A stretch of DNA of 57,121 nucleotides from an uncultured Prevotellaceae bacterium (lineage in GTDB: Bacteria > Bacteroidota > Bacteroidia > Bacteroidales > Bacteroidaceae), in assembly GCA_902782305.1 (NCBI GenBank), contig CACZMV010000013.1:1-57121 (forward strand), given 5' to 3'. Shown piece by piece: positions 15,429 to 34,028 of the stretch. The notes below the pieces were generated by a model. That model worked only from the letters and a program-made list of their open reading frames with translations, was not told where the DNA came from and searched no databases. The first letter of the stretch is position 1; each line of letters begins with the position of its first letter. The position numbers were made by a program, and so were the translations under genes.

Positions 15429-17447
15429 ATGCTATCTATCTTCAAGAAAAAACAAAAGACCGCCTATCCGCACTCCTTTGCCAAGCGGCTCACGTGGCGC
15501 ATTATGCTTCGCATGTTGATATTCATGGGCATCCCCACAGCCCTGGTGTTCTGGCTTTGCTACGTATTGGTCTATACGGGTGCCGTCGGCATCTGCAACC
15601 GTCTGGTGAGCGGCCAACAAGAGAAAATCCGGCGCATCACGTCCGACCTCTACGTTGCCTCCGTCAACACCGCGCCAGTCATCGAGGAGAACCTGGACCG
15701 TCCTGAGAAGATACAGGAAATCATCGAGCGCATGCTGAGGAAGAATCCATACATGCGCAGCTGCGGCATCAGCTTCGTGGAGAACTACTATCCCAAGAAG
15801 GGACGCTGGTTCTGCCCCTTTGCGGTGCGTGTCAATAGCGACACCATCGAGACGCATGTGGTGGGCGATGCCAAGCACGACTACCTGAACGCGGCCTGGT
15901 TCAAGGAGGCTCTCAGCAGGAACGAGGGCTACTGGGGCAAGGCTTTCATAGACAGTGTCAACCAGCAGCGTCCGCTGGTTTCCTTCCAGATGCCCATCCA
16001 CGACAAGCGTGACAGCACGGTGGCCATTCTCCGTGCCGACCTGTCGCTCGACTGGCTGAACGACAAGATACAGTTCTATCATACAAAAGAAGATAGTACC
16101 CGCAAGACCAGCGTCACCATCAGGACCGACGTTAAAAAGGACGGCAGCTGGGACCCGGAATATGCCGTCTACTACTTCCTGGTCGACACGACGGGCACCC
16201 TGCTGATACACCCCGACCAGAAGCGCGTGCTCAGCCACAACATCAAGGAGTACGTGACCGAGGACCCCGAGGACGCGATAGGACGCATGCTGAAACGCAA
16301 TGCCGATGAGGACGACGACCTGATGCTCGACAACGAGAACATGCTGGTGACCTTCCAGTCTGTGAAGTACACCAACTGGTGCCTGGGCCTGGTGATACCT
16401 GAGCTTCTCATCCAGATCATTGCCTACATCTTCGGCGGCATCATGATCCTGATTATCCTGATAGGCATGCTGGCTGTCTACTTCTTCGGTCGCAGGACCA
16501 TCAAGAAGGCCACCCAGCCGCTGAAGCAGCTGGCCGAATCAGCCAACGAGGTGGCCAAGGGAAACTTCGGCACACCGCTGCCCCCGCTGACGAGCCGTGA
16601 CGAGATACACATGCTGCGCGACTCTTTCGAGCAGATGCAGCACTCGCTGACCCGATACGTGGAGGAGCTCAAGAGCACGACGGCGCAGAAGGCCTCCTTC
16701 GAAAGCGAGCTGAAGATAGCGCACAACATCCAGATGTCGATGCTTCCCAAGACCTTCCCGCCCTACCCCGAGCGCGATGACATCGACATCTTCGGGACGC
16801 TGATGCCTGCCAAGGCGGTGGGTGGCGACCTGTTCGACTTCTACATCCACAACGAGCAGCTCATCTTCTGCATCGGCGACGTGTCGGGCAAGGGCGTTCC
16901 CGCCTCGCTGTTCATGGCGGTGACGCGCTCGCTGTTCCGCAACGTGTCGGCCCATGAGGTGAAGCCCCACCTCATCGTGAAGGCGCTCAACGAGTCGCTG
17001 TCCGAGAACAACGACCTGTACATGTTCGTCACGCTGTTCGTCGGTGTGCTCGACCTGCAGACCGGTCTCTTACGCTACTGCAATGCCGGTCACGACTCGC
17101 CCCTGCTCATCGGTCGCGGTGTCGACGTGCTGCCCTGCGACTCGAACCTGCCCATCGGCATCCAGCCCGACTGGGAGTTCACGGAGCAGGAAGTCCTCAT
17201 CGACCGGCACACCACCATTTTCCTCTTCACCGACGGACTCAACGAGGCCGAGGACATCAGCCACGCCCAGTTTGGCGACCAGCGCATCCGGGGTGTTGCC
17301 GAGAGTCTGCTGGTTACGGGCAACCACCGTCCCACCACCGTGGTGAAGAAGATGAACGAGGCCGTCCACGCCTTTGTGGGCAATGCCGAGCAGAGCGACG
17401 ACCTGACGATGCTGGCGATACAATACAAAAGAGAGGCTTCGGAGTAA
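15429..17447 (+). CDS. Membrane sensor PP2C-type serine phosphatase (SpoIIE/RsbU domain) with HAMP
   Basis: A 672-residue inner-membrane protein. TM1 is at about residues 26-48, a periplasmic dCache-like sensor spans about 50-315, TM2 is at about 322-350, a HAMP domain with PLKQLAESANEVAKGNF near 362, a short coiled coil, and a SpoIIE phosphatase domain at about 445-670. Metal-binding motifs are intact: GGDLFDFY, GDVSGKGVPASLF, FTDGLNEAED and SDDLTMLA. Such proteins dephosphorylate anti-sigma antagonists in partner-switching pathways, but no STAS or anti-sigma gene is next to it. The coding sequence is far richer in G+C than neighbouring genes, suggesting transfer or recombination. Confidence 0.92.
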   Translation: MLSIFKKKQKTAYPHSFAKRLTWRIMLRMLIFMGIPTALVFWLCYVLVYTGAVGICNRLVSGQQEKIRRITSDLYVASVNTAPVIEENLDRPEKIQEIIERMLRKNPYMRSCGISFVENYYPKKGRWFCPFAVRVNSDTIETHVVGDAKHDYLNAAWFKEALSRNEGYWGKAFIDSVNQQRPLVSFQMPIHDKRDSTVAILRADLSLDWLNDKIQFYHTKEDSTRKTSVTIRTDVKKDGSWDPEYAVYYFLVDTTGTLLIHPDQKRVLSHNIKEYVTEDPEDAIGRMLKRNADEDDDLMLDNENMLVTFQSVKYTNWCLGLVIPELLIQIIAYIFGGIMILIILIGMLAVYFFGRRTIKKATQPLKQLAESANEVAKGNFGTPLPPLTSRDEIHMLRDSFEQMQHSLTRYVEELKSTTAQKASFESELKIAHNIQMSMLPKTFPPYPERDDIDIFGTLMPAKAVGGDLFDFYIHNEQLIFCIGDVSGKGVPASLFMAVTRSLFRNVSAHEVKPHLIVKALNESLSENNDLYMFVTLFVGVLDLQTGLLRYCNAGHDSPLLIGRGVDVLPCDSNLPIGIQPDWEFTEQEVLIDRHTTIFLFTDGLNEAEDISHAQFGDQRIRGVAESLLVTGNHRPTTVVKKMNEAVHAFVGNAEQSDDLTMLAIQYKREASE

Positions 17448-17520: not shown

Positions 17521-19041
17521 TTAATCCGTTATCAGGTTCTCGCCGGTCATGTCGGCGGGCTGCTCCAGTCCCATGATGTGCAGGATGCTGGGAGCCACGT
17601 CGGCCAGACGTCCGTCTTTAACTGTAGCCGAGTTGTTGTTGGTTACATAGATGAAAGGAACGGGGTTCAGTGAGTGAGCAGTATTTGGTGTACCATCGGC
17701 GTTGATAGCATTATCAGCATTTCCGTGGTCGGCAATGATGATGGCCTCGTAGTCGTTCTTCTTGGCGGCCTCGATGACCTCGCGGACGCAGTTGTCGACG
17801 GCCCATACGGCCTTGGCAATAGCGTTGTAAACACCCGTATGACCTACCATATCACCATTAGCAAAGTTTACTACGATGAAGTCGTACTTGGCCTCGTTGA
17901 TGGCGGCTACCAGCTTGTCCTTGACCTCGTAGGCCGACATCTCGGGCTTCAGGTCGTAGGTGGCAACCTTGGGGCTGGGCACCAGGATGCGGTCCTCGCC
18001 CTCGTAGGGAGCCTCGCGGCCGCCGTTGAAGAAGAAGGTGACGTGGGCGTACTTCTCGGTCTCGGCGGTGTGCAGCTGCTTCTTGCCCTGCTTGCTGAGG
18101 TACTCGCCCAGGGTGTCCTCCACGTTCTCCTTGGGGAACAGGATGTGTACGCCCTTGAAGTTGGCGTCGTACGGCGTCATGCAGTAGTACTGCAGTCCGG
18201 GAATGGTCTTCATGCCCTGCTCAGGCATGTCCTCCTGGGTCAGCGCGATGGTCATCTCCTTGGCGCGGTCGTTACGGAAGTTGATGAAGATCACTACATC
18301 ACCCTCTTCGATACAACCATTGACAGAAGCATTGTGGATAGGCTTGATGAACTCATCGGTTACACCCTCTGCATAGCTCTCTTCCATAGCCTGAACCATA
18401 TCAGTGCTCTGCTTACCAACACCGTTGACGATGAGGTCATAACCCTCTTTTACACGCTCCCAACGCTTGTCGCGGTCCATCGCGTAGAAACGACCTACAA
18501 TACTTGCGATTGCAGCATCATTGTCTGCACAAACCTTGCTAATTTGCTCAATGAAACCCTTACCAGAGTGTGGGTCGGTATCGCGACCGTCCATATAGCA
18601 ATGTACGAACACCTGATTCTTCAAGCCATAAGCCTTACCAATCTCAATGAGCTTGAACAGATGGTCCAAAGAAGAGTGCACACCACCGTCAGAGGTCAGA
18701 CCCATCAGGTGCAGTTTTTTGTTGTTCTCCTTGGCGTAGGTGTAAGCAGCCTTCACCTGAGGATTCTCCATGATAGAGCCGTCCTTGCAGGCACGGTTAA
18801 TCTTTACCAGGTCCTGATACACAATGCGACCGGCACCAATGTTCAGGTGACCCACCTCAGAGTTACCCATCTGTCCGTCGGGCAGACCAACATCCTCACC
18901 AGAAGCCTGCAACTGAGAGTGAGCTGAAGTAGCTGTTAACAAATCGAGGTAAGGCGTTGGAGTGTTGAAAATCACGTCACCCTTACCATGCTTACCGATT
19001 CCCCATCCGTCGAGAATCATCAATAATGCTTTCTTTGCCAT
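17521..19041 (-). CDS. gpmI: 2,3-bisphosphoglycerate-independent phosphoglycerate mutase
   Basis: A 506-residue cofactor-independent phosphoglycerate mutase of glycolysis. It starts [14 protein letters not shown] with the metal-binding Asp. The nucleophilic Ser is in [18 protein letters not shown] near residue 60; further metal ligands are in [11 protein letters not shown] near 127 and IADHGNADN near 442. The C-terminal half (17521 to about 18290) uses G+C-rich codons like the adjacent phosphatase gene, while the N-terminal half looks like the rest of the chromosome, a sign of mosaic ancestry. The enzyme itself appears intact. Confidence 0.97.
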
Positions 19042-19084
19042 ATTCTTATTACCTATTTAATATATACATGCTTAATTTGCGGTG

Positions 19085-19092
19085 CAAAGTTA
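19085..19092 (-). promoter_or_regulatory. Promoter -7 element for gpmI
   Basis: Minus-strand TAACTTTG, 44 bases upstream of the gpmI start; -33 box weak. Confidence 0.55.
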
Positions 19093-19247
19093 CTAATTTT
19101 TTAGCACCAACACCACGCATTTTACCGATTATTTTCTTAAAACTCGCCAAATTAGTATCATCTGCACCTCCCACGATTACATACCATGCTTATTTGCAAA
19201 GTCGTCTTATCAACTGTAACGAATGTTTTCTACATTGTGTCTTGTTT

Positions 19248-20072: not shown

Positions 20073-20106
20073 TAATTGCTTTGTTTTGAGGTTTTTTGGC
20101 AAATTA

Positions 20107-20138
20107 TTTGTCTAAATAATTTCTTTTTTCTATCTTTG
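20107..20138 (+). promoter_or_regulatory. Promoter for the barrel-NRPS operon
   Basis: TTTG at 20107-20110, 20 bases, TATCTTTG at 20131-20138: full consensus match, 25 bases before the ATG at 20163. Confidence 0.85.
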
Positions 20139-20162
20139 CCCTCAAATAAAGACCTCATAACT

Positions 20163-21512
20163 ATGAAATTTCAACTGATAAGGCCATTCGTAGCTGTAGT
20201 CTTGCTACTACAGGCTGGCTTCTTATGGGCTCAGACGAATGATTCTGCAAAGGTAAACAAGTTGAGTTTTGGCATTGACTTCATGACGCACGGAGAAATG
20301 ATGCGTGGCGGACTTCCCATAGACCTGGACGACGAACCGGACGATAACTCAAGCTTCCTGTTGGGCCGCTTCCGTCTGATAGTGGATTACGAGCGACCAG
20401 GATTACAGGCACATGCTGTGCTTCAAAACAAGTCGGTATGGGGTACTCATGGTGCGCAAGCACTTAAGCTATATGAAGGCTGGGCAAAGATGACAGCCAA
20501 ATGCGGCTTGTTCGCTCAGGTAGGTCGTGTAGCACTGGCTTATGACGATGAACGCATTATCGGTCCTAACGATTTTGCGATGGCATCGCTTTCACACGAC
20601 ATTTTGAGAGTTGGCTACGAGGGTTACGGACATCAGGTACACGCTATACTAGCCTACAACCAGAGTGAAGATAATGTATATTCTAGTACATACTATGACA
20701 ATGGTGATAAACCTTACAAGACGATGCAGACGGTGTGGTATCACTACGATGTGCCCAAGTTCCCACTGGGTGTTTCTCTGCTTTTCATGAATGTGGGTCT
20801 GCAGGCTGGTGTGAAAGGGTCAGAGGAAAACAAGCCCAGCACGGAATATCAACAGATGTATGGTGGCTATCTGAACTATCACCACAAGAAACTGACAGTG
20901 GAAGGTTCCTACTATAAGCAGGTGGGTAAGTCGGTAGATGCTCGCGCAAGAAAAGCTAGAGATATGGATGCATGGATGGCCAGTGGAAAGGTCACTGTTA
21001 ATCCTAATGACTATTACGGTTTCACGCTGGGTTACGACTACCTGAGTGGTGATGACAAAGTGATAGTCCCATCACCAGGAGACATTGGACTTGGACTAAT
21101 ATATCATGAAACGAACAAGGGATTCTGTCCGCTGTTCGCTTCGCGCAACAAGTTCTATGGCATCATGGACTACTTCTATCAGAGCGCCTATATCAACGGC
21201 TTTACCCCTGGTTTGCAGAATGCTTTCATCGGTGCTTTCGGAAAGCCCACGCGAAAGATGGACCTCAGTGCCACCTACCACTATCTGGCAGTGGCCACAG
21301 AAATAGATAATCTGAACCGGACGTTGGGTCATAGCATTGACCTGCAAGCCGGTTATCAGTTCACAAAAGACATTTCACTGAATATAGGTTACACGCTGAT
21401 GTTCAGCACGGAAACGATGTACTGGCTGAAACAGGGAAATGACAGCAAGTGTGCCCAATGGGGATGGTTCTCGCTGAACATATCACCCAGTTTGTTTTCT
21501 ACGAAATTCTAA
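20163..21512 (+). CDS. Outer-membrane beta-barrel protein, first gene of the NRPS operon
   Basis: A 449-residue protein with a signal peptide (MKFQLIRPFVAVVLLLQAGF, cut after WAQ). It shows repeated amphipathic beta strands rich in Gly, Tyr and Trp and ends in Phe, as outer-membrane barrels do. It resembles porin or alginate-export-like barrels, but I cannot name the family. An ATG 87 bases earlier lies ahead of the promoter and is rejected. The NRPS starts 26 bases after its stop, so the two are surely co-transcribed. It may pass a precursor or the product across the outer membrane; that is inference. Confidence 0.8.
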   Translation: MKFQLIRPFVAVVLLLQAGFLWAQTNDSAKVNKLSFGIDFMTHGEMMRGGLPIDLDDEPDDNSSFLLGRFRLIVDYERPGLQAHAVLQNKSVWGTHGAQALKLYEGWAKMTAKCGLFAQVGRVALAYDDERIIGPNDFAMASLSHDILRVGYEGYGHQVHAILAYNQSEDNVYSSTYYDNGDKPYKTMQTVWYHYDVPKFPLGVSLLFMNVGLQAGVKGSEENKPSTEYQQMYGGYLNYHHKKLTVEGSYYKQVGKSVDARARKARDMDAWMASGKVTVNPNDYYGFTLGYDYLSGDDKVIVPSPGDIGLGLIYHETNKGFCPLFASRNKFYGIMDYFYQSAYINGFTPGLQNAFIGAFGKPTRKMDLSATYHYLAVATEIDNLNRTLGHSIDLQAGYQFTKDISLNIGYTLMFSTETMYWLKQGNDSKCAQWGWFSLNISPSLFSTKF

Positions 21513-21538: not shown

Positions 21539-24500
21539 ATGAAAAAAATCTCCAAACCCTCTAACCAGGCTGTTAACACACAGACCGTCGCATCGTTGTT
21601 CCGCAAACAGGCCAAGGAAACCCCTGAGAATATCGCAGTAGTTTATAAAGACAAACGGTATACCTATGCTGAGGTGGATGCACTCAGCGACCGCATCGCG
21701 GCGTTTGTCGCCTCGAAAGGGCTTGGCAAAGAGGATGTGGTAAGCATCTTGATTCCACGTTGCGAGTGGATGGTCATCGCACCGCTCGGCGTGTTGAAGG
21801 CCGGATGCGCCTATCAGCCTCTCGATCCTACCTACCCCAAGGAGCGTTTGAACTATATGGTGCAGGACGCCAATGCCAAGCTGCTGATTGCCGATGAGGA
21901 GTTGCTGTCGTTGTTAGGCGATGTTACGGCACCTGTCCTCCTGACGAAGGACATCAACCAATTGCCCCCTATCACCCAACCTTTGGCAAACCCAGATCCT
22001 GCAGGTTTGCTGATGCTCGTCTATACCTCGGGAACCACAGGCCAACCCAAGGGTGTGATGTTGGAGCAGCGCAACGTAGCCTCATCGTCCGTACCTTTTG
22101 CCAGTTTCTTAGGTATGAAGGTTGGCAGTCGAGTAGCCAACTATGCCAGTTTCGGTTTTGTGCCCACTGTCGTCGAGACGTGGGGCGGGCTCTCCTTAGG
22201 TGTAACACTGCATATCCTTGACAATGCCGAGCGCTATGACATGGGACGACTGAAGGCGTACATTCGCAGGGAAGAGATTACACATATTTTCATGACCACC
22301 ATGATGGCTTATCAGTTTGCTGGTAACCTGGATGAAGACACCTCCCTGGAGGTACTCAGTTGTGGTGGCGAGGCACTGCCACCTCTGACACCTCCGAAGC
22401 ATATCCGGATGGTTAACTTCTACGGAAGTTCTGAGTGTACAAGTATTGCCGGACATAATCTTACTCAACGTGAAGAGCAGTCTATTATTGGTACCCCTTT
22501 AGGTGAAACGACACTGGCTGTGATGGCCGATAATGGCCAGCCTGCCGCTGTTGGCGAAGAGGGTGAGCTATGGGTCATGGGACCTCAGGTATGTCGTGGC
22601 TATCTGCACGCTCCTGAGCTGACAGCACAGAAAATAACGGAAGACGACACTCACGGTAGGATTTTCAAGACAGGCGACATCGTTATGCGCCGCGATGACG
22701 GTGAATTGGTGTTCGTTGGTCGTCGCGACGGAATGGTGAAGATTCGCGGTTTCCGCGTCGAACTGAAGGAAGTGGAAGCCGTCATCCGTGAATTCCCAGG
22801 TATCAAGGACGCCACCGTCCATGCTTTCGATACAGAAGGAGAAGGAGCAGGCAAGTTCATTGCTGCCTACGTAGTGAGCGATTCTCCTGTAGACGTTGAG
22901 GCCCTGAACGCCTTCATACTCGAAAAGAAACCACCTTATATGGCTCCCGAGGTCATCATGCAGATTGATGCCATTCCGCTGAACCAAAACCATAAAGTGG
23001 ACAAGCGAGCGCTTCCCAAGCCCGTACGCTCTGTTACGACAGAATCGCAACAAACAGAAAACGCCCCGATGAATGTGCTGGAGAAGGAACTCCACGACAT
23101 CATATCCAAGTTGGTGGGCAATAGTGACTTTGGCGTCACAACGTTACTGGGTCACACTGGCCTGACATCCATTACGGCCATGAAACTGGCGGTAGAGATC
23201 AATAAGCGCTACGGCATAGAGCTTGATGCCAAGTCGATGGCGAAATCAGTTACCCTTCAGAGTATCGAGAATGAGATACTAAGAAGTCTGATGGATGAAG
23301 GAAGAAGTAAGACGGGAGACGAAACACCTCAGCCGTCAGACATCAGCCATCCCAAGTCCGCTCCCCTCTCCTACGCCCAATTGGGTGTTTATTACGAGTG
23401 CATGAAGCATCCGCTTGACACGACTTATAATCTTCCCACTGCCATCATACTTCCCCCAGGCATTGAGGGTGATAAGGTGGAACAAGCCCTTTTGCAACTA
23501 ATCTCTGCGCATCCTGCCTTCAACATCCATTTCGAGACGCAGGGTAACGACGTCGTCCAAGTGTACGACCCTGACCTGGTGCCGGTAGTGACACGTAGTG
23601 AGATGACGGAAAAGGACCTGATTGCCTATCAGCAGTCCTTTGTCCTGCCTTTCAATTTGGACCGCGGTCCGCTCTACCGCATGGAAATCGTGCAGACGGA
23701 AAACCGCGTGGTCATCTTGATAGATGTGCATCACCTCATCTTCGATGGTGCATCATTCGACTTGCTTACACGCCAGCTATGCGATGTCCTGGACGGGAAA
23801 ACCATCGAGCCAGAGAGACTCGGCTTACTCCAGTTCTCGCAGGAGCAGCGACAGGCTGAGAGTGGCCAAGAATATCAGGAAGCGAAAGCCTATTTTGCCG
23901 AAGTGATGAAGGAATGCGAGGGCTGTACGGAAATTACCGACGACTTTACGCCCAGTGAGCCTCACGGTCATGTTGCCCAGGTAGTCACTCCTTTCGATTA
24001 TACCAAGGTGGAGCAGTTCTGCAAGCAGTTGAATGTGACGCCTGCCAGTCTGATGCTCGCTGTGTCTTTCTACACGTTGTCGCGCTACACCAACAACCGT
24101 CATGTCTATATCTCCACGATTAGTAACGGACGTTCCAACCTACGTCTGGCTGATACGACGGGTATGTTTGTCAACACCCTTCCATTGGCAGGACATATCA
24201 CGGAACAGACCGTAGAAGAGTTCGTCCGTCGCACGAGTGAGAATTTAGAGCAGACGATGCGCCACGAACTCTATCCCTTCGCCCGTATTGCTGCCGATTT
24301 CGACTTCTCGGCCAACACGACCTATACTTATCAGTTGGGAATCTTCGAAGAGCATACCATTGGTGGCGAGAAGATTACTGTCAAGTCGATAGACGTAGAT
24401 GTGCCGAAACAGAAACTCGATATCATCATCATACAACAGGACGGCCAGCCAGTCATCTGTCTGGAGTACGACGATGCCTTCTATAGCGAGAAGACGATCA

Positions 24501-27500
24501 AGGGATTGGCAGAATCATTCGTCAGCGTTCTGAAACATTTCATGGAGGCACCGAAGAACAGTCTGCTTAAGGTGTCGATGCTTAGCGATGAACAAGAGCG
24601 TCTGGTCAATTCTTTCCGTATGGCTGGCACAGCAGATGTTCCTACCCGTCTGTTCCATCAGGCCGTTGAGGCGAATGCCGAGCAGAAGCCCGACGTGAAG
24701 GCTCTCGTAGCCTGCGACGGCACCTTTACTTTCAGCCAGTTGAATAGTGAGATGAACCGTATAGCCAATGCGCTCATTGCTCATGGTGTGAAGCGTGGCG
24801 ACCGCGTGGCCATGTTGCTGCCTCGTACCAGTCGCCTTATCTTCACCATGTTTGGTATCATGAAGGCTGGTGCAGCATACATCCCCTGTGACCCGCACTA
24901 TCCAGCAGACCGCATCAAGCTGATTCTCGAAGACAGCGAGGCTGCCTATATCGTTACCGACGATGAGAATCTGGAGAATCTGAAGGCGCAAGCCGGAGAG
25001 GGAAGTCTCAAGGTATTGGAGAAAGCCTTGAATGTCGAAGAACTGTTGCAATGCGAAAACACGGCAAACCCAGCTATTCCACAGGAAGGCGGCGACCTCG
25101 CCTACATTATTTATACGTCAGGTTCTACAGGTCGTCCAAAAGGAGTGATGCTTCACCACAAGGGTATCTGCAACGAGCTCTTTGCCCATCCGCTCAACTT
25201 CCGCAACTGGACGGTAATGCAAGAGGTAAAGTGCATACTCGGACTGGCCACCATCTCCTTCGACGCTTCCGTTGAGGAAATTGGTATTCCGCTGTACAAC
25301 GGTCTCACCCTGGCATTGGCCAGCGACGAGATAGCCAACGACCCGATTCTCTTGGCGGAGTTTATGGTGGAAAACAACGTGGGTATGTTCCAAGGCACAC
25401 CGTCACGCTTGATGCAGCTCTATGAGTCGGATACCTTCCGCAAGGCGCTTTCAGGTTGTCACATCATTGAGCTGGGCGGCGAGAAATTCTCAGACAGCCA
25501 GTTGCGTGAACTGCAAAAGACGATGGTAAATGCTGACGGTTCTCATCAAGTGCATATCTTCAACAGCTTCGGTCCCACTGAGACAACGGTGGAAAGCAAC
25601 AGCCACGAAGTGACACACGACGACCATGTGACCATCGGTCGTCCGTTGGTCAACGTGACCGAATATATCGTGGACGCCGACATGAACCGTGTGCCAGTGG
25701 GTGTTGTAGGTGAACTACTGATCGGTGGTGCGCAGGTGGGCTTGGGTTATAACAACCTGCCTGATAAGACTCGCGAGGCCTTCATCCCCAACCCGTTTGT
25801 CACCGGCGACGCTATCGACAAAACGCTATACCGCTCTGGTGACTATGCGCGCTGGGACGAACAGGGCTACGTTTCCATCTTAGGACGTACCGACAACCAG
25901 GTGAAACTGCGTGGTCTGCGTATCGAACTGGGTGAGATTGAGAGTGTCATTTCCCAACAGGAAGGTATCGGTCAGGTCATCGTGATGATTCGCAAGATCA
26001 ATGGCAAGGAACATCTCTGTGCCTACTTCACTGCCAATCATGCTGTAGACATTGACGAACTGAAAGTGGAGATTGGCAAGAGCCTGACACAGTACATGGT
26101 GCCAACGGCTTACCTGCAACTCGACAAGATGCCGACCACGCCTAGCGGTAAGACCGACATGAAGGCACTGCCCGAACCCACGCTTTCCATCACGACAGCA
26201 TATGTGGCGCCAGCAAATGAATTGGAAGAACAGCTTTGCAATATCTTCGCTAATATCTTGCAAGTAGAGCGTGTGGGAGCTACCGACGATTTCTTCGAAT
26301 TGGGTGGCACTTCGCTTGTCGTCACACGCTTGATTATCGATGTCGATAAGATTGGACACCATTTGGTCTATGGTGATGTTTTCGACAACCCGACGCCACG
26401 ACAGATTGCTGCCTTGCTGACCGGTACTCAGGTGACCGAGAAAGTCAGTCTGGAGTCGGAGGTGAAGGACTTCGACTACACTGCCATCGACCAAGTTCTG
26501 ACTGGAGGTACTATAGAAGCTTTCCGTGAGGGTACGCCACTCACGTTAGGTCATGTACTACTGACGGGAGCCACTGGCTACCTGGGCATTCACCTGCTCA
26601 ACGAGCTTATCAGTTCCGATGCCAAGACTATTACCTGTCTGGTACGTGCCAAGAGTCCAAAGGATGGAGAACGTCGCTTGCAGACGCTCCTGTATTACTA
26701 TTTCGCCTCTTCCTATCGCGACCTCTTCGAGAGCGGACGTCTCCGCGTCATCAATGGCGACGTCACCAACGACCTCTGTTCTTTGCTCGACGGTTCCGCC
26801 GTCGAGATTGACACGGTGTTCAACTGTGCCGCCATCGTGAAACACTTCTCCAAGGACAACGACATCGAACGCGTCAACGTAGATGGCACACAGCGCTGCG
26901 TGGACTACTGTCTGAAGACGGGAGCCAAGCTCATCCAGATTTCCACCGTCAGTGTGGGCGGTTTCCTGACACATGGCGAGTCTGCCGACAAGGCTTTCCT
27001 CAGCGAGCAGCGTCTCTTCATGAACCAGTATTTGGGTAACCAATATACGCTTTCGAAATACCTTTCTGAGCGTATCGTTCTCGATGCTGTTGCCACCAAG
27101 GGTCTCGTGGGTAAGGTGATGCGTGTCGGCAACCTTGCAGCCCGCAGTACAGACGGTGAATTCCAAGTAAATTTCCGCACCAACAGCTTTGCCGGTACGA
27201 TGCGCGCCTATAGCTTGTTAGGCTGTTGTCCCTATGGCAATTTCACAAATCCTGTAGAGTTCTCGCCTATCAACGAGGTCGCTCAGGCTATTTGTCTGCT
27301 GGCCACCACGCCACGCGAGTGTTGTATGTTCCATCCATACAACAACCATAGCGTGTTCCTTGGTGACGTGCTGGGCGAACTGGCCTCAGTAGGCACACCT
27401 GTGCGAATGGTAGAACAAGACGAGTTCCTGCAGGCATTGGATCAGATCAAGTCTGACCCTCAGAAAGCCGAGCGCCTGCAAAGTCTGGTAGCATACGCCG

Positions 27501-27658
27501 ACGTGACTCACGGACAGGATGCAATCCTCGTTCAGGAGACGAACGACTACACCATGCAGGTGCTTTACCGACTAGGTTTCCAGTGGTCACCCACCTCATG
27601 GGACTATGTTGATCGCTTCTTCCAGGTGATTGCTGGCTTCGACTTTTTTGCAGAGTGA
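21539..27658 (+). CDS. Two-module NRPS with reductive release (A-T-C-A-T-R)
   Basis: A 2039-residue nonribosomal peptide synthetase starting MKKISKPSNQ at 21539. A1 spans about 18-510 (YTSGTTGQPKG near 161), T1 has its phosphopantetheine Ser at 544 (GLTS), C spans about 615-1030 with HHLIFDG at 731-737, A2 spans about 1055-1555 (YTSGSTGRPKG near 1193), T2 has Ser 1592 (GGTS), and R spans about 1665-2039 with GATGYLG near 1677 and catalytic Y1836/K1840. There is no condensation domain before A1, so A1-T1 is a loading module. Hand alignment to GrsA gives pockets V-P-V-F-S-G-F-S (A1, Asp235 lost) and D-A-E-Q-E-G-S-V (A2). The R domain should release an aldehyde or alcohol with NAD(P)H. No thioesterase, MbtH or phosphopantetheinyl transferase lies nearby. 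Confidence 0.95.
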   Translation: MKKISKPSNQAVNTQTVASLFRKQAKETPENIAVVYKDKRYTYAEVDALSDRIAAFVASKGLGKEDVVSILIPRCEWMVIAPLGVLKAGCAYQPLDPTYPKERLNYMVQDANAKLLIADEELLSLLGDVTAPVLLTKDINQLPPITQPLANPDPAGLLMLVYTSGTTGQPKGVMLEQRNVASSSVPFASFLGMKVGSRVANYASFGFVPTVVETWGGLSLGVTLHILDNAERYDMGRLKAYIRREEITHIFMTTMMAYQFAGNLDEDTSLEVLSCGGEALPPLTPPKHIRMVNFYGSSECTSIAGHNLTQREEQSIIGTPLGETTLAVMADNGQPAAVGEEGELWVMGPQVCRGYLHAPELTAQKITEDDTHGRIFKTGDIVMRRDDGELVFVGRRDGMVKIRGFRVELKEVEAVIREFPGIKDATVHAFDTEGEGAGKFIAAYVVSDSPVDVEALNAFILEKKPPYMAPEVIMQIDAIPLNQNHKVDKRALPKPVRSVTTESQQTENAPMNVLEKELHDIISKLVGNSDFGVTTLLGHTGLTSITAMKLAVEINKRYGIELDAKSMAKSVTLQSIENEILRSLMDEGRSKTGDETPQPSDISHPKSAPLSYAQLGVYYECMKHPLDTTYNLPTAIILPPGIEGDKVEQALLQLISAHPAFNIHFETQGNDVVQVYDPDLVPVVTRSEMTEKDLIAYQQSFVLPFNLDRGPLYRMEIVQTENRVVILIDVHHLIFDGASFDLLTRQLCDVLDGKTIEPERLGLLQFSQEQRQAESGQEYQEAKAYFAEVMKECEGCTEITDDFTPSEPHGHVAQVVTPFDYTKVEQFCKQLNVTPASLMLAVSFYTLSRYTNNRHVYISTISNGRSNLRLADTTGMFVNTLPLAGHITEQTVEEFVRRTSENLEQTMRHELYPFARIAADFDFSANTTYTYQLGIFEEHTIGGEKITVKSIDVDVPKQKLDIIIIQQDGQPVICLEYDDAFYSEKTIKGLAESFVSVLKHFMEAPKNSLLKVSMLSDEQERLVNSFRMAGTADVPTRLFHQAVEANAEQKPDVKALVACDGTFTFSQLNSEMNRIANALIAHGVKRGDRVAMLLPRTSRLIFTMFGIMKAGAAYIPCDPHYPADRIKLILEDSEAAYIVTDDENLENLKAQAGEGSLKVLEKALNVEELLQCENTANPAIPQEGGDLAYIIYTSGSTGRPKGVMLHHKGICNELFAHPLNFRNWTVMQEVKCILGLATISFDASVEEIGIPLYNGLTLALASDEIANDPILLAEFMVENNVGMFQGTPSRLMQLYESDTFRKALSGCHIIELGGEKFSDSQLRELQKTMVNADGSHQVHIFNSFGPTETTVESNSHEVTHDDHVTIGRPLVNVTEYIVDADMNRVPVGVVGELLIGGAQVGLGYNNLPDKTREAFIPNPFVTGDAIDKTLYRSGDYARWDEQGYVSILGRTDNQVKLRGLRIELGEIESVISQQEGIGQVIVMIRKINGKEHLCAYFTANHAVDIDELKVEIGKSLTQYMVPTAYLQLDKMPTTPSGKTDMKALPEPTLSITTAYVAPANELEEQLCNIFANILQVERVGATDDFFELGGTSLVVTRLIIDVDKIGHHLVYGDVFDNPTPRQIAALLTGTQVTEKVSLESEVKDFDYTAIDQVLTGGTIEAFREGTPLTLGHVLLTGATGYLGIHLLNELISSDAKTITCLVRAKSPKDGERRLQTLLYYYFASSYRDLFESGRLRVINGDVTNDLCSLLDGSAVEIDTVFNCAAIVKHFSKDNDIERVNVDGTQRCVDYCLKTGAKLIQISTVSVGGFLTHGESADKAFLSEQRLFMNQYLGNQYTLSKYLSERIVLDAVATKGLVGKVMRVGNLAARSTDGEFQVNFRTNSFAGTMRAYSLLGCCPYGNFTNPVEFSPINEVAQAICLLATTPRECCMFHPYNNHSVFLGDVLGELASVGTPVRMVEQDEFLQALDQIKSDPQKAERLQSLVAYADVTHGQDAILVQETNDYTMQVLYRLGFQWSPTSWDYVDRFFQVIAGFDFFAE

Positions 27659-27681
27659 AATAGTAACTTTTTGCATAAAAT

Positions 27682-27712
27682 TTTGCTATTTCGACAAAAC
27701 TTTGTAACTTTG
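27682..27712 (+). promoter_or_regulatory. Promoter for the RND efflux operon
   Basis: TTTG at 27682-27685, 19 bases, TAACTTTG at 27705-27712: full consensus, 24 bases after the NRPS stop and 54 before the adaptor gene. Confidence 0.85.
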
Positions 27713-27766
27713 GCGAGTTAAAAACCTGTCAAATAGACAATTTACTATTACTAAAATATAAAGAAA

Positions 27767-28894
27767 ATGAAAAGAAACAATGTGAAGATGGGTGTTGTAG
27801 CACTGGCTGCAGTGGTTGGTGGACTGACCTCATGTGGTGGCGAAATGCCCCAAGTAGAACAGACGTCGTATGAGACGGTGACCATTAAGAAAGAAGACAT
27901 TACAGTGCCTATGAAGTTCAGTGCGAAACTCAAGGGTGAGACGGATGTAACCATCACGCCTCAGGTAAGTGGACAGCTGACGAGAATCTGCGTGACCGAA
28001 GGTGACCAGGTGAAGAAAGGTCAGGTGCTCTTTATCATCGACCAGCGTGACGCACAGTTGGAACTGGAGTCTGCACAGGCTAACCTCCAGGCTGCTCTTG
28101 CCCAAGAGGCAAGTGCGAAAATCGAGTACGAGTCTAACAAGAATCTGTATGAGAAGAAGATTGTCAGCAAATATACGCTCGATACTTCAGAGAACTCATA
28201 CAACCAGGCAAAGGCATCCGTGGCACAATACAGGGCACAGGTAAACCGTGCGAAGGTGAACCTCGGCTACTGCACCATTACTGCCCCCGTGACGGGCAGC
28301 ATCGGTGAGATTCCCGTGCGTACGGGTGATCAGGTGTCGCCGTCAACCTATCTGACCACGGTGAGCGGCAACGCGAATATGGATGCAGAATTCTCACTGC
28401 CGGAAACGATTCTGTCAATGATGCTCTCTGAAGGTTTCAGCACGGATCCCAGTGCACTTTCAAAGTATTCGCTCGATGTGAGTTTTGTCATGAAGAACGG
28501 TGCGGAGTATGAGCATAAGGGCAAGATTACCAGAGCTACGGGCGTGGTGAATGCCTCTACTGGTACTATTTCGCTGAAGGCTACCTTCCCCAACCCTAAG
28601 GGCCTGCTCTACTCAGGTATGCAGGGTAATGTGGTGATTCCTCTGCAAGAACAGGGCGTCATGGTAATCCCGCAGGAGGCTGTCGTGAAGTTGCAGGACA
28701 AGCAGCAGGTGTATAAGGTACAGCCCGACAGCACAGCAACGGCTATCGAGGTGACTACACAGGACATCTATGATGGTAAGCACTATATAGCGTTGACAGG
28801 TCTGAACGAGGGTGACCAGATTGTGACCGTAGGAGCCAACAACGTACACGAGGGACAGAAGGTGCTTTTCCCGGCTGCACCGGAGAAGAAGTGA
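27767..28894 (+). CDS. RND efflux periplasmic adaptor (AcrA/MexA-type lipoprotein)
   Basis: A 375-residue membrane fusion protein. A lipoprotein signal ends at Cys23 (LTSCGG). A biotinyl-lipoyl-like domain holds VTITPQVSGQLTRI near residue 60, followed by a helical hairpin (about 100-165), a second lipoyl half (ITAPVTGSIGEIPVRTGDQVSP near 172-195) and a beta-barrel domain. It would link the inner-membrane pump to the TolC-type channel. First gene of a three-gene pump operon with its own promoter just after the NRPS, which suggests, but does not prove, export of the NRPS product. Confidence 0.94.
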   Translation: MKRNNVKMGVVALAAVVGGLTSCGGEMPQVEQTSYETVTIKKEDITVPMKFSAKLKGETDVTITPQVSGQLTRICVTEGDQVKKGQVLFIIDQRDAQLELESAQANLQAALAQEASAKIEYESNKNLYEKKIVSKYTLDTSENSYNQAKASVAQYRAQVNRAKVNLGYCTITAPVTGSIGEIPVRTGDQVSPSTYLTTVSGNANMDAEFSLPETILSMMLSEGFSTDPSALSKYSLDVSFVMKNGAEYEHKGKITRATGVVNASTGTISLKATFPNPKGLLYSGMQGNVVIPLQEQGVMVIPQEAVVKLQDKQQVYKVQPDSTATAIEVTTQDIYDGKHYIALTGLNEGDQIVTVGANNVHEGQKVLFPAAPEKK

Positions 28895-28930
28895 AAAGTG
28901 AAGAGTGAAAAGTGAAAAATTTGCTTCCGC
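28888..28930 (+). repeat. 43-bp intergenic repeat, copy 1 (adaptor/pump junction)
   Basis: Made of GTGAAAA/GTGAAGA words followed by AAATTTGCTTCCGC. It matches 41 of 43 bases with copy 2 at 32075-32117. The adaptor stop codon lies at its left end. Confidence 0.9.
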
Positions 28931-28933
28931 TTT

Positions 28934-31900
28934 ATGAAGAATAATATATTTATTAATAGGTACGTGATGGCGTGCGCCATCAGTATCGTGTTGGCGCTGG
29001 TGGGCTTCATTTCGATGAGTTCGCTGCCCATCGAGCAATATCCGAACATCGCACCTCCGCAAGTGGAGGTTACGGCCTACTATATGGGTGCTGACCCCAA
29101 AACCATCATTCAGTCGGTGATCTCCCCCTTGGAAGAGAGTATCAACGGTGTGGCCGGTATGGACTATATGGTATCGAAGGCCACCTCAACGGGTACCGCG
29201 ACCATCGACGTGTATTTCAAGCAGGGCGTTGACCCAGATATCGCGACGGTGAACGTACAGAACCGTGTGTCGAAGGCTCAGTCGCAGCTGCCTTCTGCCG
29301 TTGTCAATATGGGTATTGAGACAGAAAAACGCCAGAGCAGTATTCTGCGCATCATCGGTATTCAATGTACAAACGGCAAGTATAGCGACGACTTCGTGTC
29401 AAACTACGTAGATATCAACATCAAGCCGCGTATGCAGCGTATCTTTGGTGTGGGCTCTGTGACGTCGTTAGGTAACACCTATGCCCTGCGTGTCTGGATG
29501 AAACCCGACGTGCTGGCACAATACGGTCTGACTCCCGACGATATCAGCACAGCCATCAACAGCCAGAGTTTCGTGACCTCTTTAGGCAACTTCGGTGAGC
29601 AATCAGATAACAAATACCAGTACTCGATGGAGTATAAGGGTACGCTGAAGGAGATTGATGAGTTCAATGACATCGTCATCAAGACCACCGACGGTGGTCA
29701 CGTGCTGCACCTGAAAGACGTGGCAGAAGTGGAAATTGGTGCCAAGACCTACAGCTTCAAGTCTAATATCAGCGGCCAGCCGGGTACCTTCATGCTGATT
29801 TTCCAGTCACCAGGCTCCAATGCAACGGAGGTGAACCAGCGCATCGACCAGATGTGCGAGGAGATGAAGGCAACGATGCCTGACGGACTGGAATTCGTCA
29901 CCTTGCAGAATGCCGACGACTTCCTCTTCGCGGCCATCCATAATGTGGTGGAAACGCTCGTCATCGCTATCATTCTGGTGATTCTGGTGGTGTTCTTCTT
30001 CCTGCAGAACGTCAAGGCAACGATTATCCCCAGTATCTCGGTGATTGTGTCACTGATGGGTACCTTTGTCATCGTCACCTTGGCTGGATTCTCGCTGAAC
30101 CTGCTGACGCTGTTCGCGCTGGTGCTGGCCATCGGTACGGTGGTAGATGATGCCATTGTGGTCGTCGAGGCCGTGATGGCAAAGATGGAGAATGGTATCA
30201 CCGATGCCAAGGAGGCTACGCGCCAGGCTGTCGGCGAAGTGTCGATGGCAGTATTCTCGTGTACGCTTGTCTTCATGGCAGTGTTCATTCCCGTAACCTT
30301 TATCTCCGGTACGTCGGGTACGTTCTTCACACAGTTCGGTATCACCATCGCCTCGGCAGTAGGTCTGTCGTGTCTGCAGGCGCTGACTACGTGTCCTGCC
30401 CTTTGTGCCATCATGTTGAAGGTGACGGAGGACAAGAAGGATGGCGGAAAGTCGCTGCTCTACTACACCAAGAAAGCCTACGACGCCAGCTATAATGCCC
30501 TTTTCGACAAATATAGCAAGGGGGTGAAGAAGTTCATCAAGCGTCCAGGTGTGTCTTGGATATTAATGGGCATTGCTGCCGCACTGCTTGTATTCTTTAT
30601 GATGAAACTGCCGTCGGGCCTCGTGCCACAGGAAGACCAGGGTATGTTCATGGTTGAGGTGGATGCACCGGAAGGTTACACACTGGAGCAGACCTACGAC
30701 CTGCTGCAGCAGGTGGAGGAGAAAGTGAAGGTTATTCCCGAAATGGAGAGCTATGCCATGGTGAGCGGCTACGGTCTGATCTCAGGTCAGGGTTCCAGCT
30801 ATGGCTTCATGGTTATCCGTCTGAAGAACTGGGAAGAGCGTTCGGGTATAGAACACTACATAGATGCGGTCATGTATCGTTTCTATATGTCGTGTGCGGA
30901 CATCAAGAATGCCACGGTCATTCCGTTCCAGATGCCCCAGATTCCGGGCTATGGTACGAGCAGCAACGTGAACCTCGTCGTAGAGGACCCCACCGACGGC
31001 GACCTGTCGGAGTTCTCTAAGAAGACCGACAACTTCCTGGCTAAGCTCATGGAGCGCAAGGAAGTGAGTATGGCAATGTCCACCTATTCGGAGAAATTCC
31101 CGAAATATCGTGTCGAAGTGGATCCCACCCAGTGCAGTCGCTCCGGCTTATCAGCCAAGGAAGTGCTGAGCACGCTCGGCAATTACTGTAGTGGTTCGTA
31201 TGTCGCCAACTACAACCAGTTCGGTAAGGTGTATCAGTTATGGACTGCCGCAGCTCCTGAATATCGTCTCGATCCCACGTCGCTCAACAATATCTTCGTG
31301 AAGACGAGCAGCGGAAAGATGGCACCCCTCTCAGAGTTTGTTTCACTGACGGAGATTGTTGGTCCATCTAACAACCAGCACTTCAACCTGTTCTCAAGTA
31401 TTGAGTGTCAGGTATCTCCTGCCAGCGGCTACAGTGAAGGTCAGGTTCAGGAGGTCATTAAAGAGGTGTTCCGCGAGACGATGCCTAGTACGGCTACGTT
31501 TGAGTACAGCAGTATGTCGCGTGAGACCGCTGAGGCGGCTGGTTCGAACACCACCACCCTCATCTACTGCATCTGTATCGTCCTTATCTACCTGATTATG
31601 GGATCGTTGTATAACTCATGGTTCACGCCGTTGGCTGTGCTGCTCAGTATCCCGTTCGGTCTGATGGGTGCCTTCTGCGTCGTCTGGCTTTGTGCTAACA
31701 TTGGCTTCCCAGGTATGGAGAACAATGTTTATGTGCAGACGGGTGTCGTCATGCTGATCGGACTGTTGGCCAAGACCGCCATCCTGATTACCGAGGTGGC
31801 CTCCGAGCACCGTAAACACGGTATGGGTATCAGTGAAGCAGCCTTCTTAGCTTGTCAGGAGCGTCTGCGCCCCATTCTGATGACTGTTATCTGTATGGTT

Positions 31901-32095
31901 GTCGGTATGATTCCGCTCGCCATTGCCAGCGGTGCCGGTGCCAATGGTAACCGTGCCCTTGCCATGTGTGTCATCGGAGGTATGGTAGTTGGTACCATAG
32001 CATTGCTCTTCGTCGTTCCTGCGTTCTATATCATCTTCCAGAAGCTGCATGATAAGTTCCAGGGCAGCATCGTGGAAGTGAAAAGTGAAGAGTGA
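28934..32095 (+). CDS. RND efflux pump permease (AcrB/HAE1 family)
   Basis: A 1053-residue inner-membrane proton-driven pump of the hydrophobe/amphiphile efflux family, normal length. The N-terminal TM is followed by SSLPIEQYPNIAPPQVEVTA. The proton-relay pair in TM4 is seen in AIGTVVDDAIVVVEAV near residue 405, and other conserved stretches are GTFFTQFGITIA near 460 and GVVMLIGLLAKTAILI near 935. The last seven residues (VEVKSEE) are encoded by the 43-bp repeat copy 2, so the tail appears to have been set by the repeat. It pairs with the adaptor upstream and channel downstream. Confidence 0.96.
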   Translation: MKNNIFINRYVMACAISIVLALVGFISMSSLPIEQYPNIAPPQVEVTAYYMGADPKTIIQSVISPLEESINGVAGMDYMVSKATSTGTATIDVYFKQGVDPDIATVNVQNRVSKAQSQLPSAVVNMGIETEKRQSSILRIIGIQCTNGKYSDDFVSNYVDINIKPRMQRIFGVGSVTSLGNTYALRVWMKPDVLAQYGLTPDDISTAINSQSFVTSLGNFGEQSDNKYQYSMEYKGTLKEIDEFNDIVIKTTDGGHVLHLKDVAEVEIGAKTYSFKSNISGQPGTFMLIFQSPGSNATEVNQRIDQMCEEMKATMPDGLEFVTLQNADDFLFAAIHNVVETLVIAIILVILVVFFFLQNVKATIIPSISVIVSLMGTFVIVTLAGFSLNLLTLFALVLAIGTVVDDAIVVVEAVMAKMENGITDAKEATRQAVGEVSMAVFSCTLVFMAVFIPVTFISGTSGTFFTQFGITIASAVGLSCLQALTTCPALCAIMLKVTEDKKDGGKSLLYYTKKAYDASYNALFDKYSKGVKKFIKRPGVSWILMGIAAALLVFFMMKLPSGLVPQEDQGMFMVEVDAPEGYTLEQTYDLLQQVEEKVKVIPEMESYAMVSGYGLISGQGSSYGFMVIRLKNWEERSGIEHYIDAVMYRFYMSCADIKNATVIPFQMPQIPGYGTSSNVNLVVEDPTDGDLSEFSKKTDNFLAKLMERKEVSMAMSTYSEKFPKYRVEVDPTQCSRSGLSAKEVLSTLGNYCSGSYVANYNQFGKVYQLWTAAAPEYRLDPTSLNNIFVKTSSGKMAPLSEFVSLTEIVGPSNNQHFNLFSSIECQVSPASGYSEGQVQEVIKEVFRETMPSTATFEYSSMSRETAEAAGSNTTTLIYCICIVLIYLIMGSLYNSWFTPLAVLLSIPFGLMGAFCVVWLCANIGFPGMENNVYVQTGVVMLIGLLAKTAILITEVASEHRKHGMGISEAAFLACQERLRPILMTVICMVVGMIPLAIASGAGANGNRALAMCVIGGMVVGTIALLFVVPAFYIIFQKLHDKFQGSIVEVKSEE

Positions 32096-32117
32096 AAAGT
32101 GAATAATTTGCTACCGC
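32075..32117 (+). repeat. 43-bp intergenic repeat, copy 2 (pump/channel junction)
   Basis: Differs from copy 1 (28888-28930) at two positions. It covers the last codons and the stop of the pump gene and the spacer before the channel gene. Confidence 0.9.
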
Positions 32118-32132
32118 ATAGAAGTTTTAATT

Positions 32133-33536
32133 ATGAGATACAAGAATATAATCGCAGCTGCAGCCGTGAGTATGATGCTCACGGGCTGCGGCCTATATAA
32201 TAAATATGAGAAGACCGTGCAGGAACCTGCCAACATTTTCGGCAGCAATGTGCTCAGTGGTTCAGCTGCTGAAGACGCTACCGTCGCCGATATGTCTTGG
32301 CGCGAGTTCTTCACAGATCCCTTGTTGCAGAATCTTATCGAACAGGCGCTGGCCAACAATACCGACCTGAACACGGCCCGTATCAATATTGAGAAGAGTG
32401 AGATTTCACTGAAGACCAAGAAGCTGGCCTATCTGCCTTCTGTCTACTTCAAGCCGCAGGGCTCTCTCTACAGCTTCGACGGTGCCACGCCCACCAAGAG
32501 CTACACCATACCCCTGGACGTGTCATGGGATATCGATGTGTTCGGTTCCATCACCAATAAGAAGCGCGCTGCCAAGGCTGCCTTGTTGCAGGCCCAGATG
32601 ACCGAGGAATCCACCCGTTCCAACCTCATTAGCAGCATAGCCCAGCAGTATTTCTATCTCCAGTTGCTCGACCGCGAACTGGAAATCCTCACCGAGACCG
32701 ACAGTCTATGGAAAGCTTCGCTGGAAACGATGCAGGCTCTTTACGACAACGGACAAGCCTATTCAACGGCTGTCAACCAGCAAGAGTCGTCGTATCTCGA
32801 CGTGAAGTTGCAGATTGTTTCCATCAAGCGCAGCATCCGCTCCTCCGAGAATGATATATGCAGCTTGCTGTGCATCACACCACAGCACATCCAGCGCGCT
32901 CATTGGGGAGCAGAAGCCCAGTATCACTCTGCATCAGATAAACACTTGTTCGAGGAAAAATACATGAAAATCGGTGTGCCCGCCATGATGTTGGAGCGTC
33001 GTCCTGACATCCGCTTGGCCAACTACTACATGGAAGAAGCCTTCTATAATGTGCAGGCTGCCCGTGCTGCCTTCTTCCCCAGCATCACGCTGACGGGAGA
33101 GGCTGGTTGGTCTAACAATAGTGGCCTCATCAATCCCGCCAAGTTCCTGTGGCAGGCTATAGGCTCACTCTCACAGCCTCTCTTTGCCCGCGGTCAGATC
33201 AAGGGCAACTACAAGACAGCCCAGTTGACCGAGGAGAACCTGAAGAAGAAGTATGTGCAGGCTATCATCGATGCCGGCAACGAGGTCAATGAAGCCATCA
33301 GCGATTGTCAGTCAGCCCGCGAAATGCACGATTACTACCACCGTCAGGTGGAAGTATTGCACGAAGCCTATACCGGCACCCATGAGTTGATGGACAATGG
33401 TAAGGCTAGTTACCTAGAGGTACTCACTGCTCAGGAGTCACTGCTCAATGCACAGCTCAACGAGGCATCAAACATGTATAATGGTGCCCAGGCTCTCATT
33501 TCCCTGTACGTCGCTCTGGGCGGTGGTACGAAGTAA
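32133..33536 (+). CDS. TolC-type outer-membrane efflux lipoprotein (NodT family)
   Basis: A 467-residue outer-membrane channel. A lipoprotein signal ends at Cys19 (MLTGCG). It has the typical WREFFTDPLLQNLIEQAL segment near residue 53, two OEP repeats of long helices, and the conserved RRPDIRLANYYMEEAF near 288 followed by ARAAFFPSITLTGEAGW. It completes the tripartite pump and is followed by a strong terminator, closing the operon. Confidence 0.95.
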   Translation: MRYKNIIAAAAVSMMLTGCGLYNKYEKTVQEPANIFGSNVLSGSAAEDATVADMSWREFFTDPLLQNLIEQALANNTDLNTARINIEKSEISLKTKKLAYLPSVYFKPQGSLYSFDGATPTKSYTIPLDVSWDIDVFGSITNKKRAAKAALLQAQMTEESTRSNLISSIAQQYFYLQLLDRELEILTETDSLWKASLETMQALYDNGQAYSTAVNQQESSYLDVKLQIVSIKRSIRSSENDICSLLCITPQHIQRAHWGAEAQYHSASDKHLFEEKYMKIGVPAMMLERRPDIRLANYYMEEAFYNVQAARAAFFPSITLTGEAGWSNNSGLINPAKFLWQAIGSLSQPLFARGQIKGNYKTAQLTEENLKKKYVQAIIDAGNEVNEAISDCQSAREMHDYYHRQVEVLHEAYTGTHELMDNGKASYLEVLTAQESLLNAQLNEASNMYNGAQALISLYVALGGGTK

Positions 33537-33570
33537 CATATTTATCCAATAATCATTGAGGATATAATCA

Positions 33571-33613
33571 TTGGGGACAGGTTCGATTGCGTCCAATCAA
33601 ACCTGCCCCCATT
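33571..33613. terminator. Terminator after the efflux operon
   Basis: A long hairpin: GGGGACAGGTT-GATTG pairs with CAATC-AACCTG-CCCC around loop CGTC, with single-base mismatches, followed by a short T-rich stretch. Confidence 0.8.
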
Positions 33614-33615
33614 CT

Positions 33616-33951: not shown

Positions 33952-33987
33952 GCAGCGCCCATTCCGAGCGCAGTCTTTTGTTTTTTG
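33946..33987. terminator. Probable terminator at the end of the polyene-type operon
   Basis: An imperfect hairpin: ACAAAAGCAGCGC pairs with GCGCAGTCTTTTGT with internal mismatches, followed on the plus strand by a T run. It may be a bidirectional stop or the end of the barrel remnant. Confidence 0.5.
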
Positions 33988-34028
33988 ATAAACTCAGGTA
34001 TTTGCTTTTATGTTTATGTACTAGTGTA

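Follow-up and report, generated by a model that had tools for sequence, protein, structure and literature searches.

A minimal nonribosomal peptide synthetase of an uncultured Prevotellaceae bacterium, predicted to release a capped basic amino aldehyde

AusA, the aureusimine/phevalin synthetase of Staphylococcus, is a nonribosomal peptide synthetase (NRPS) whose first adenylation (A) domain carries Asp235 and the motif YGPTE. The substrate there is an amino acid (Val), and the aldehyde that AusA releases closes to a pyrazinone. A free-amine dipeptide aldehyde goes to the dihydropyrazinone, as in aureusimine. Synthetases of N-acyl dipeptide aldehydes of the ruminopeptin type have the order C-A-T-C-A-T-R (C, condensation; T, carrier; R, reductase), and the gut dipeptide-aldehyde products are N-acylated in part. 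The aeruginosins and spumigins of cyanobacteria join a keto-acid-derived cap to a basic C-terminal residue, some of them being argininals released by an R domain. Leupeptin is acetyl-Leu-Leu-argininal, which in Klebsiella is not known to be made by an R-terminated NRPS. Here we describe an NRPS gene at 21539..27658 on the forward strand of a 57,121-nucleotide stretch of DNA (the window) from an uncultured Prevotellaceae bacterium (GCA_902782305.1, contig CACZMV010000013.1). Its first A domain (A1) is very probably an Asp-less loader of something other than an amino acid.

The window enzyme differs from these systems in several ways. AusA is an amino-acid loader, whereas A1 of the window lacks Asp235, and the one phosphopantetheinyl transferase (PPTase) gene found in the window's genome is on another contig, not beside the synthetase. 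The enzyme begins with an A domain (residue 15) and not with the starter C domain of the C-A-T-C-A-T-R layout. A keto-acid-derived cap and a basic C-terminal residue, as predicted for the window, recall the aeruginosins and spumigins; their synthetases build a longer chain, have a ketoreductase in the loading module and lie in a larger cluster than the window's. With leupeptin the predicted product shares a capped basic amino aldehyde as pharmacophore. The synthetases of ruminopeptin (Ruminococcus bromii) and of the Fischbach gut compounds resemble the window's in gut niche, NRPS origin and a reactive aldehyde as the active form, as described in PMC12327764. Those dipeptide aldehydes are open to pyrazinone cyclisation (PMC12327764), whereas in the window line an A domain would supply the cap, with a single amino acid after it.

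An intact single-protein line with an Asp-less loading domain

The gene is a single 2039-residue open reading frame (ORF) in the order A-T-C-A-T-R. All catalytic motifs are present, those of the A, T and C domains as well as the TGxxGxxG and Tyr-x-x-x-Lys of a C-terminal thioester reductase; HHxxxDG is found in 23 of 23 C domains compared. The first-pass annotation of this DNA had proposed this order in one protein able to act alone, with a complete R domain (Y1836/K1840). Domain matches and motifs bear out the order, and TGATGYLG is intact along with Y1836 and K1840. One C domain was found in the genome (88% complete), so no partner synthetase is seen, and a missing partner was set aside. A pseudogene was likewise set aside, as there is no internal stop, all motifs are kept and the gene is under purifying selection. 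The R domain is an intact short-chain dehydrogenase-type reductase; the nearest solved R domains are those of AusA and of the archaeal T-R di-domain 6vtj/6vtz, the latter from a far longer synthetase (residues 3705-4178). A genome search gave one PPTase match, a 199-residue ORF that is Sfp-like by eye and was assigned by that match. The synthetase of the window is intact, constrained and minimal; its substrates and product we infer from sequence.

Aligned with A1 of LgrA, the window's A1 has Val208 (codon 22160-22162) instead of Asp at position 235, the LgrA residues F-D-G-S lying against F-V-P-T-V-V-E. Its A5 motif reads NFYGSSECT rather than the usual NxYGPTE, with Ser297 (codon 22427-22429) at the conserved proline, so that neither of the AusA features is present. 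The specificity code, VPVFLCFSIK, is apolar at eight of ten residues (all except Ser and Lys). Keto-acid A domains are described as having a hydrophobic residue instead of Asp235, and StsA as having Met415 where amino-acid domains keep a proline, P483 in LgrA (PMC11253843). Counting residues in the 9be3 chain places P483 at the proline of YGPTE, and structure 6ulz is titled LgrA mutant P483M. Codes for alpha-keto acids frequently have valine first, and the PksJ code, VGMWNGASVK (PMC5238615), has V235, S330 and K517 in common with A1. Both keto-acid marks, an aliphatic residue at 235 and loss of the A5 proline, are found in A1. Because these changes mark alpha-keto-acid domains, A1 most likely loads no amino acid. 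Its substrate would most likely be an alpha-keto acid, branched or aromatic, or a similar acid without an alpha-amine.

Several points weigh against a keto acid. A1 and PksJ agree at only three of ten code positions, and the A5 residue is Ser, unlike the Met of StsA. McyG, with Val at 235, is listed as Phe-activating and was solved with Phe-AMP (PMC11253843). Because the keto-acid domain AulA-A2 has Gly at 235 (PMC5238615) and HcaB, a proposed keto-acid domain, retains Asp there (PMC10949194), loss of Asp235 is neither necessary nor sufficient for keto-acid loading; specificity codes are indirect. Downstream of A1 no ketoreductase of the kind found in described keto-acid modules was found. The 50 structures listed include none of StsA or McyG, which has no bearing on A1. 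The apolar code would also suit a plain carboxylic acid, whether branched-chain, short fatty or aryl (phenylacetic or another), which would give an ordinary N-acyl amino aldehyde, and the aryl-acid A domain DhbE likewise lacks Asp235 (PMC11253843). However, the DhbE-type A5 motif given there, QQVxFMAEGL, is unlike NFYGSSECT, and loss of the A5 proline is described for a keto-acid domain. We consider a plain acid rather unlikely.

The keto-acid reading can be set against a wider set of A domains. The relatives, which are not a random sample, comprise 14 GTDB loci picked up with peptide patterns from the query, together with the best 20 loci from a family sample (62 of 301 genomes matching at E <= 1e-50), the best 20 from a genus sample and 17 further regions chosen mostly by ORF length and nearness. 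The duplicates L036, L037, L031, L043 and L028 were replaced by the longer L055b, L056a, L062a, L057a and L067a, and L055b, L056a and L071a were then removed as duplicates of L008, L006 and L033. L026, L029, L030, L034, L035 and L065a-L067a were dropped as incomplete, and ORFs L055a and L071b were also dropped. Incomplete enzymes are left out of the architecture counts below, while their readable A domains are included in the domain count. L026, L065 and L067 have a C domain 5' of the first A domain (in another frame in L065 and L067); for L029, L034, L035 and L066 the available stretch ends before the enzyme starts, and L030 starts with C and is cut before R.

Among 132 distinct A domains with a readable code, Asp235 and the A5 proline are both present in 117 and both absent in 15, and none is mixed (before deduplication, 11 Asp-less and 99 Asp, n = 110). 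Each of the 15 Asp-less domains opens its enzyme, with no C upstream of it. Their codes are VP[VS]FLCFS[IV]K (7), VPHILV[IV]GMK (4), [IV]ASFVTNG[AT]K (2), MAFFVSGGLK (1) and LIFFITGAFK (1). Trees were made on part of the A domains, 61 rows (two duplicate genomes included) and 74 rows; AlphaFold alignments took 31 of 49 and 31 of 52 available rows. On the tree, where 12 of the 74 rows are Asp-less, the loss of Asp and Pro amounts to two changes and not fifteen. The co-loss therefore has small statistical weight: with two changes on short-search trees the sign test gives p 0.5, too few for a test, which also counts against the keto-acid reading. The A1 clade falls among the family's own aliphatic amino-acid-type A domains (smallest wider starred set, 28 of 61 rows and 37 of 74 rows), and the A1 pocket was therefore probably converted from an amino-acid pocket.

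Related loaders occur elsewhere in the family. The first A domains of L009 and L013 have the codes IASFVTNGAK and VASFVTNGTK with YGMTE, that is, Ile or Val at 235 and Met at the proline. This Met resembles StsA as described in PMC11253843, and these two are the family's best candidates for keto-acid loading. A window-type loader is found on the trimodular L061 (3112 residues) and L011 (VPVFLCFSIK and VPSFLCFSVK) with other second and third A domains; by their codes, loaders are mixed and matched among enzymes of the family. A 521-residue query starting with the L001 loader matched only the window's own genome in a phylum sample (1 of 296, E <= 1e-100).

How the lines start bears on the remaining alternative, that A1 loads a hydrophobic amino acid despite Val235 and that the dipeptide aldehyde cyclises to a pyrazinone as in AusA. 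Counting the window's, there are 44 complete dimodular R-terminated enzymes: C opens 34 of them, an Asp-less loader 10 and an Asp235 A domain none. Ten trimodular enzymes start with an Asp235 A domain in four cases, an Asp-less one in five and C in one. The C starters also lend something to a plain acid, since C adds a fatty acyl cap in known systems. For an amino acid speak the 971-bit match to the aureusimine synthetase model (NF047350), with the same domain order, and McyG; against it stand the model's curated cut-off of 2500 bits, the paired loss in 15 starters where the other 117 domains keep both residues, and the lack of any Asp235 starter among the 44. We judge amino-acid loading quite improbable.

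The second pocket and the predicted product

The second A domain (A2) has the code DAEQILSVEK, identical in the window and in all eight relatives of at least 67% identity among the 14 GTDB loci, six dimodular (L001-L004, L008, L010) and two trimodular (L005, L006). Its first part, DAEQILSV, agrees at six of eight positions with the BacB-M1-Lys code, DAESIGSV (PMC3207962). In Pls_A, E217, four residues past D213, makes a salt bridge to the Lys epsilon-amine (PMC11253843); by residue count it is position 239. The Arg consensus code also includes Glu239 (PMC12283262). A2 has both Asp235 and Glu239, as expected of a pocket for lysine or another basic residue, and likely takes Lys, Orn or Arg. Against this, the cited Lys and Arg codes show Gly at 301 and Ser or Asp at 278, positions that A2 fills with Leu and with the polar Gln, and Glu331 of A2 is unusual. 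Because Leu301 and Glu331 are unusual, Lys is only a best guess among the basic residues.

The same two residues would suit a line in which the loader and the aldehyde release hold and the A2 substrate is a different one, such as Gln, Glu or an uncommon amino acid. A literature search, with lysine codes added, did not find the exact A1 and A2 codes and turned up only that of BacB. However, Glu239 is described for Lys and Arg domains (PMC11253843, PMC12283262, PMC3207962), and an acidic pocket disfavours acidic substrates. Such a residue seems to us unlikely.

With a basic residue at A2, the pathway would run as follows. The one PPTase found in the genome would arm T1 and T2. A1 would adenylate an alpha-keto acid of the branched or aromatic kind, or a comparable acid lacking the alpha-amine, and A2, with Glu at 239 and 331, would hold Lys, Orn or Arg. 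The C domain would join the acid to the A2-held amino acid, and the R domain, judged by its family, would cleave the thioester with NAD(P)H to give an aldehyde. The predicted product is a lysinal with a keto-acyl (or acyl) cap, or a basic aldehyde like it. Ketoisocaproyl-lysinal, for instance, would be C12H22N2O3 (242.16 Da, or 224.15 if the side-chain amine closes a ring), and ketoisocaproyl-argininal C12H22N4O3 (270.17 Da). For the whole chain, a non-amino acid (likely a keto acid) at A1, a basic residue (likely Lys) at A2 and release of an N-acyl amino aldehyde, we see an even chance. The first-pass annotation had also predicted an N-acyl amino aldehyde. This holds as a prediction, and the Asp235-less loader is better evidence for the acyl cap than was available before; the substrates, absent from that annotation, are proposed here for both modules as predictions.

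Weighing against an aldehyde, R domains can yield alcohols or imines too. Some reduce by four electrons, and two reductions here would give an N-acyl amino alcohol. The motifs examined do not separate the outcomes; however, the closest solved R domains are archaeal 6vtj and that of AusA, which yields an aldehyde, and we hold an alcohol to be very improbable.

A chain without an N-terminal amine would not cyclise to a dihydropyrazinone, so that its aldehyde would remain free to react, like that of leupeptin-type inhibitors, the presumed target being proteases that cut after Lys or Arg; by this analogy the product is possibly a protease inhibitor. The pyrazinone route of aureusimine and the gut dipeptide aldehydes would be closed for the window enzyme. 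The latter cyclised and oxidised without an enzyme and were recovered as pyrazinones (PMC12327764). The earlier parallel with gut NRPSs that make dipeptide aldehydes and pyrazinones would not transfer to a product that, lacking an alpha-amine, cannot close to the ring. Looking for imine masses, the check proposed earlier, would fit only if the basic side chain closed the ring; otherwise it is directed at the wrong reaction.

The absence of free-amine starters is what would be expected if the aldehyde must survive; this is our reading of a non-random sample. A bolder reading, which we hold less likely than not, is that two-residue aldehyde lines of gut Bacteroidales never start with a free amine, the cap being set by a starter C or by a loader converted at least twice independently to a keto acid, with loss of Asp235 and the A5 proline. 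The window would be the minimal case, making a keto-acyl lysinal with two electrophilic carbonyls and a live aldehyde against Lys/Arg-cutting proteases.

Relatives and genomic surroundings

Homologs with the same A-T-C-A-T-R order, which the first-pass annotation had suggested seeking, are present in metagenome-assembly records with no product named in their titles. By their record titles L001 is from yak reticulum, L002 from sheep rumen and L003 from goat reticulum; no source is given for L006 and L010, and 'RUG' in L004, L005 and L008 denotes rumen genomes. Prevotella-type bacteria had been called not well known for NRPSs. In the window's genus relatives are common, with matches in 89 of 299 sampled genomes (the window's included) at E <= 1e-100, not all of them R-terminated synthetases. 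We take the Bacteroidaceae of rumen surveys to include Prevotella. In one such survey Bacteroidaceae account for 934 NRPS clusters (PMC8241843). Searches of the open-licence literature gave no report of the window enzyme or of what it makes.

Identity along the enzyme is uneven, which we read as a mosaic history. Set against the trimodular L005 and L006, the window enzyme has 70-96% identity in the A1 subdomain, C, A2, T2 and R. T1 falls to 58-66%, and the A1 core, at 49% with its minimum at about residues 120-420, is foreign. In the comparison with L004 and L010 the conserved part is C-A2 (77-95%); T2 reaches 65-67%, and at 44-57% both A1 and R are foreign. In the A2 core of seven relatives compared, fourfold sites are 38-60% identical and the protein 85-96%, which argues for strong constraint rather than recent transfer of A2.

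Features discussed are collected in Table 1.

Table 1. Positions of the synthetase, its domains and other features
Feature	Position	Strand	Evidence or remark
NRPS gene, 2039 residues, A-T-C-A-T-R	21539..27658	+	domain matches and motifs
A1, loader adenylation domain	21581..23020	+	code VPVFLCFSIK, A5 motif NFYGSSECT
T1, carrier domain	23051..23293	+	Ser544
C, condensation domain	23351..24613	+	HHLIFDG 731-737
A2, adenylation domain	24656..26173	+	code DAEQILSVEK; Asp1242, Glu1246, Glu1352
T2, carrier domain	26204..26443	+	Ser1592
R, reductase domain	26486..27655	+	TGATGYLG, Y1836, K1840
RND periplasmic adaptor, candidate exporter part	27767..28894	+	not beside near relatives
RND permease (AcrB type), candidate exporter part	28934..32095	+	homolog upstream of NRPS in L012
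Outer-membrane efflux protein (NodT/TolC type)	32133..33536	+	family match
Cache-SpoIIE phosphatase, window	15429-17447
Cache-SpoIIE phosphatase, L006	4367-6589
Cache-SpoIIE phosphatase, L012	19937-21877
Cache-SpoIIE phosphatase, L013	4075-6441
Cache-SpoIIE phosphatase, L014	19990-21927

An RND pump (27767-33536) begins 108 bases after the NRPS on the same strand. In clustering of 15 loci, with the flanks available, it adjoins the NRPS only in the window and, upstream, in L012, and it was not found beside the six near relatives L001-L004, L008 and L010. With two of 15 loci, the pump as dedicated exporter was set aside, and export by it is weakly supported. The Bacteroidota -7 box is TAnnTTTG. 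The gap before the pump operon (27659-27766) contains TAACTTTG, which fits this box, and the pump may therefore be transcribed from a promoter of its own. Across 27500-34100 a consensus scan gave about as many promoter-like and terminator-like sites as in shuffled sequence. Neither a self-protection gene nor a conserved exporter was found beside the near relatives, a further point against the proposed product. An upstream beta-barrel-like gene (20076-21512) was set aside, its Alginate_exp match being below cut-off and without a cluster partner at other loci.

Other transporters and regulators occur in the family. A MATE transporter cluster is present at seven loci, with MatE confirmed by Pfam in three of three members tested (L005, L009, L013). 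In L009 (2363-4102) and L013 (6748-8508) the MATE protein is fused to HATPase_c_2 (anti-sigma kinase-like) directly 5' of the trimodular NRPS, an odd fusion of exporter and regulator. In L012 a PPTase gene (18635-19225, minus strand) adjoins the NRPS and its MATE gene, with the same cluster in L013 and L014. A Cache-SpoIIE sensor phosphatase lies near the NRPS at five of 15 loci, and HAMP was found in four of these phosphatases. In each of the L012, L013 and L014 genomes a single SpoIIE gene was found, its contig position agreeing with the NRPS locus, and a HATPase_c_2 protein or fusion stands beside it in L012 and L013, where partner-switching control of the NRPS locus is possible. The window's SpoIIE gene is one of 10 in its genome, so its nearness to the NRPS may be chance. 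In L008 an M20-type peptidase ORF (8511-9971) ends 11 bases before the NRPS ORF and has no cluster partner at other loci.

Further downstream, 34029-56105 (minus strand) holds a ligase, a putative small carrier-like ORF, an MMPL protein, three ketosynthase-type and two FAD amine-oxidase-type genes, a glycosyltransferase-acyltransferase fusion and a methyltransferase, at 36-44% G+C compared with 47-53% at the NRPS. We take this cluster to be of the aryl-polyene/flexirubin kind; as a part of the NRPS pathway it was set aside, being on the opposite strand with its own ligase and small carrier-like ORF.

If the proposed pathway is true, ruminant gut Prevotella carry a set of small lines, each complete in itself, that make capped basic aldehydes; no published chemistry was found for them. 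The family is a natural record of a possible change from an amino-acid to a keto-acid pocket, with two residues changing together in the set. It also records domain exchange in which A2 is kept and A1 and R are replaced, which is useful for NRPS engineering. More speculatively, if the rumen contains a leupeptin-like inhibitor, it could matter for how protozoa and bacteria degrade protein there.

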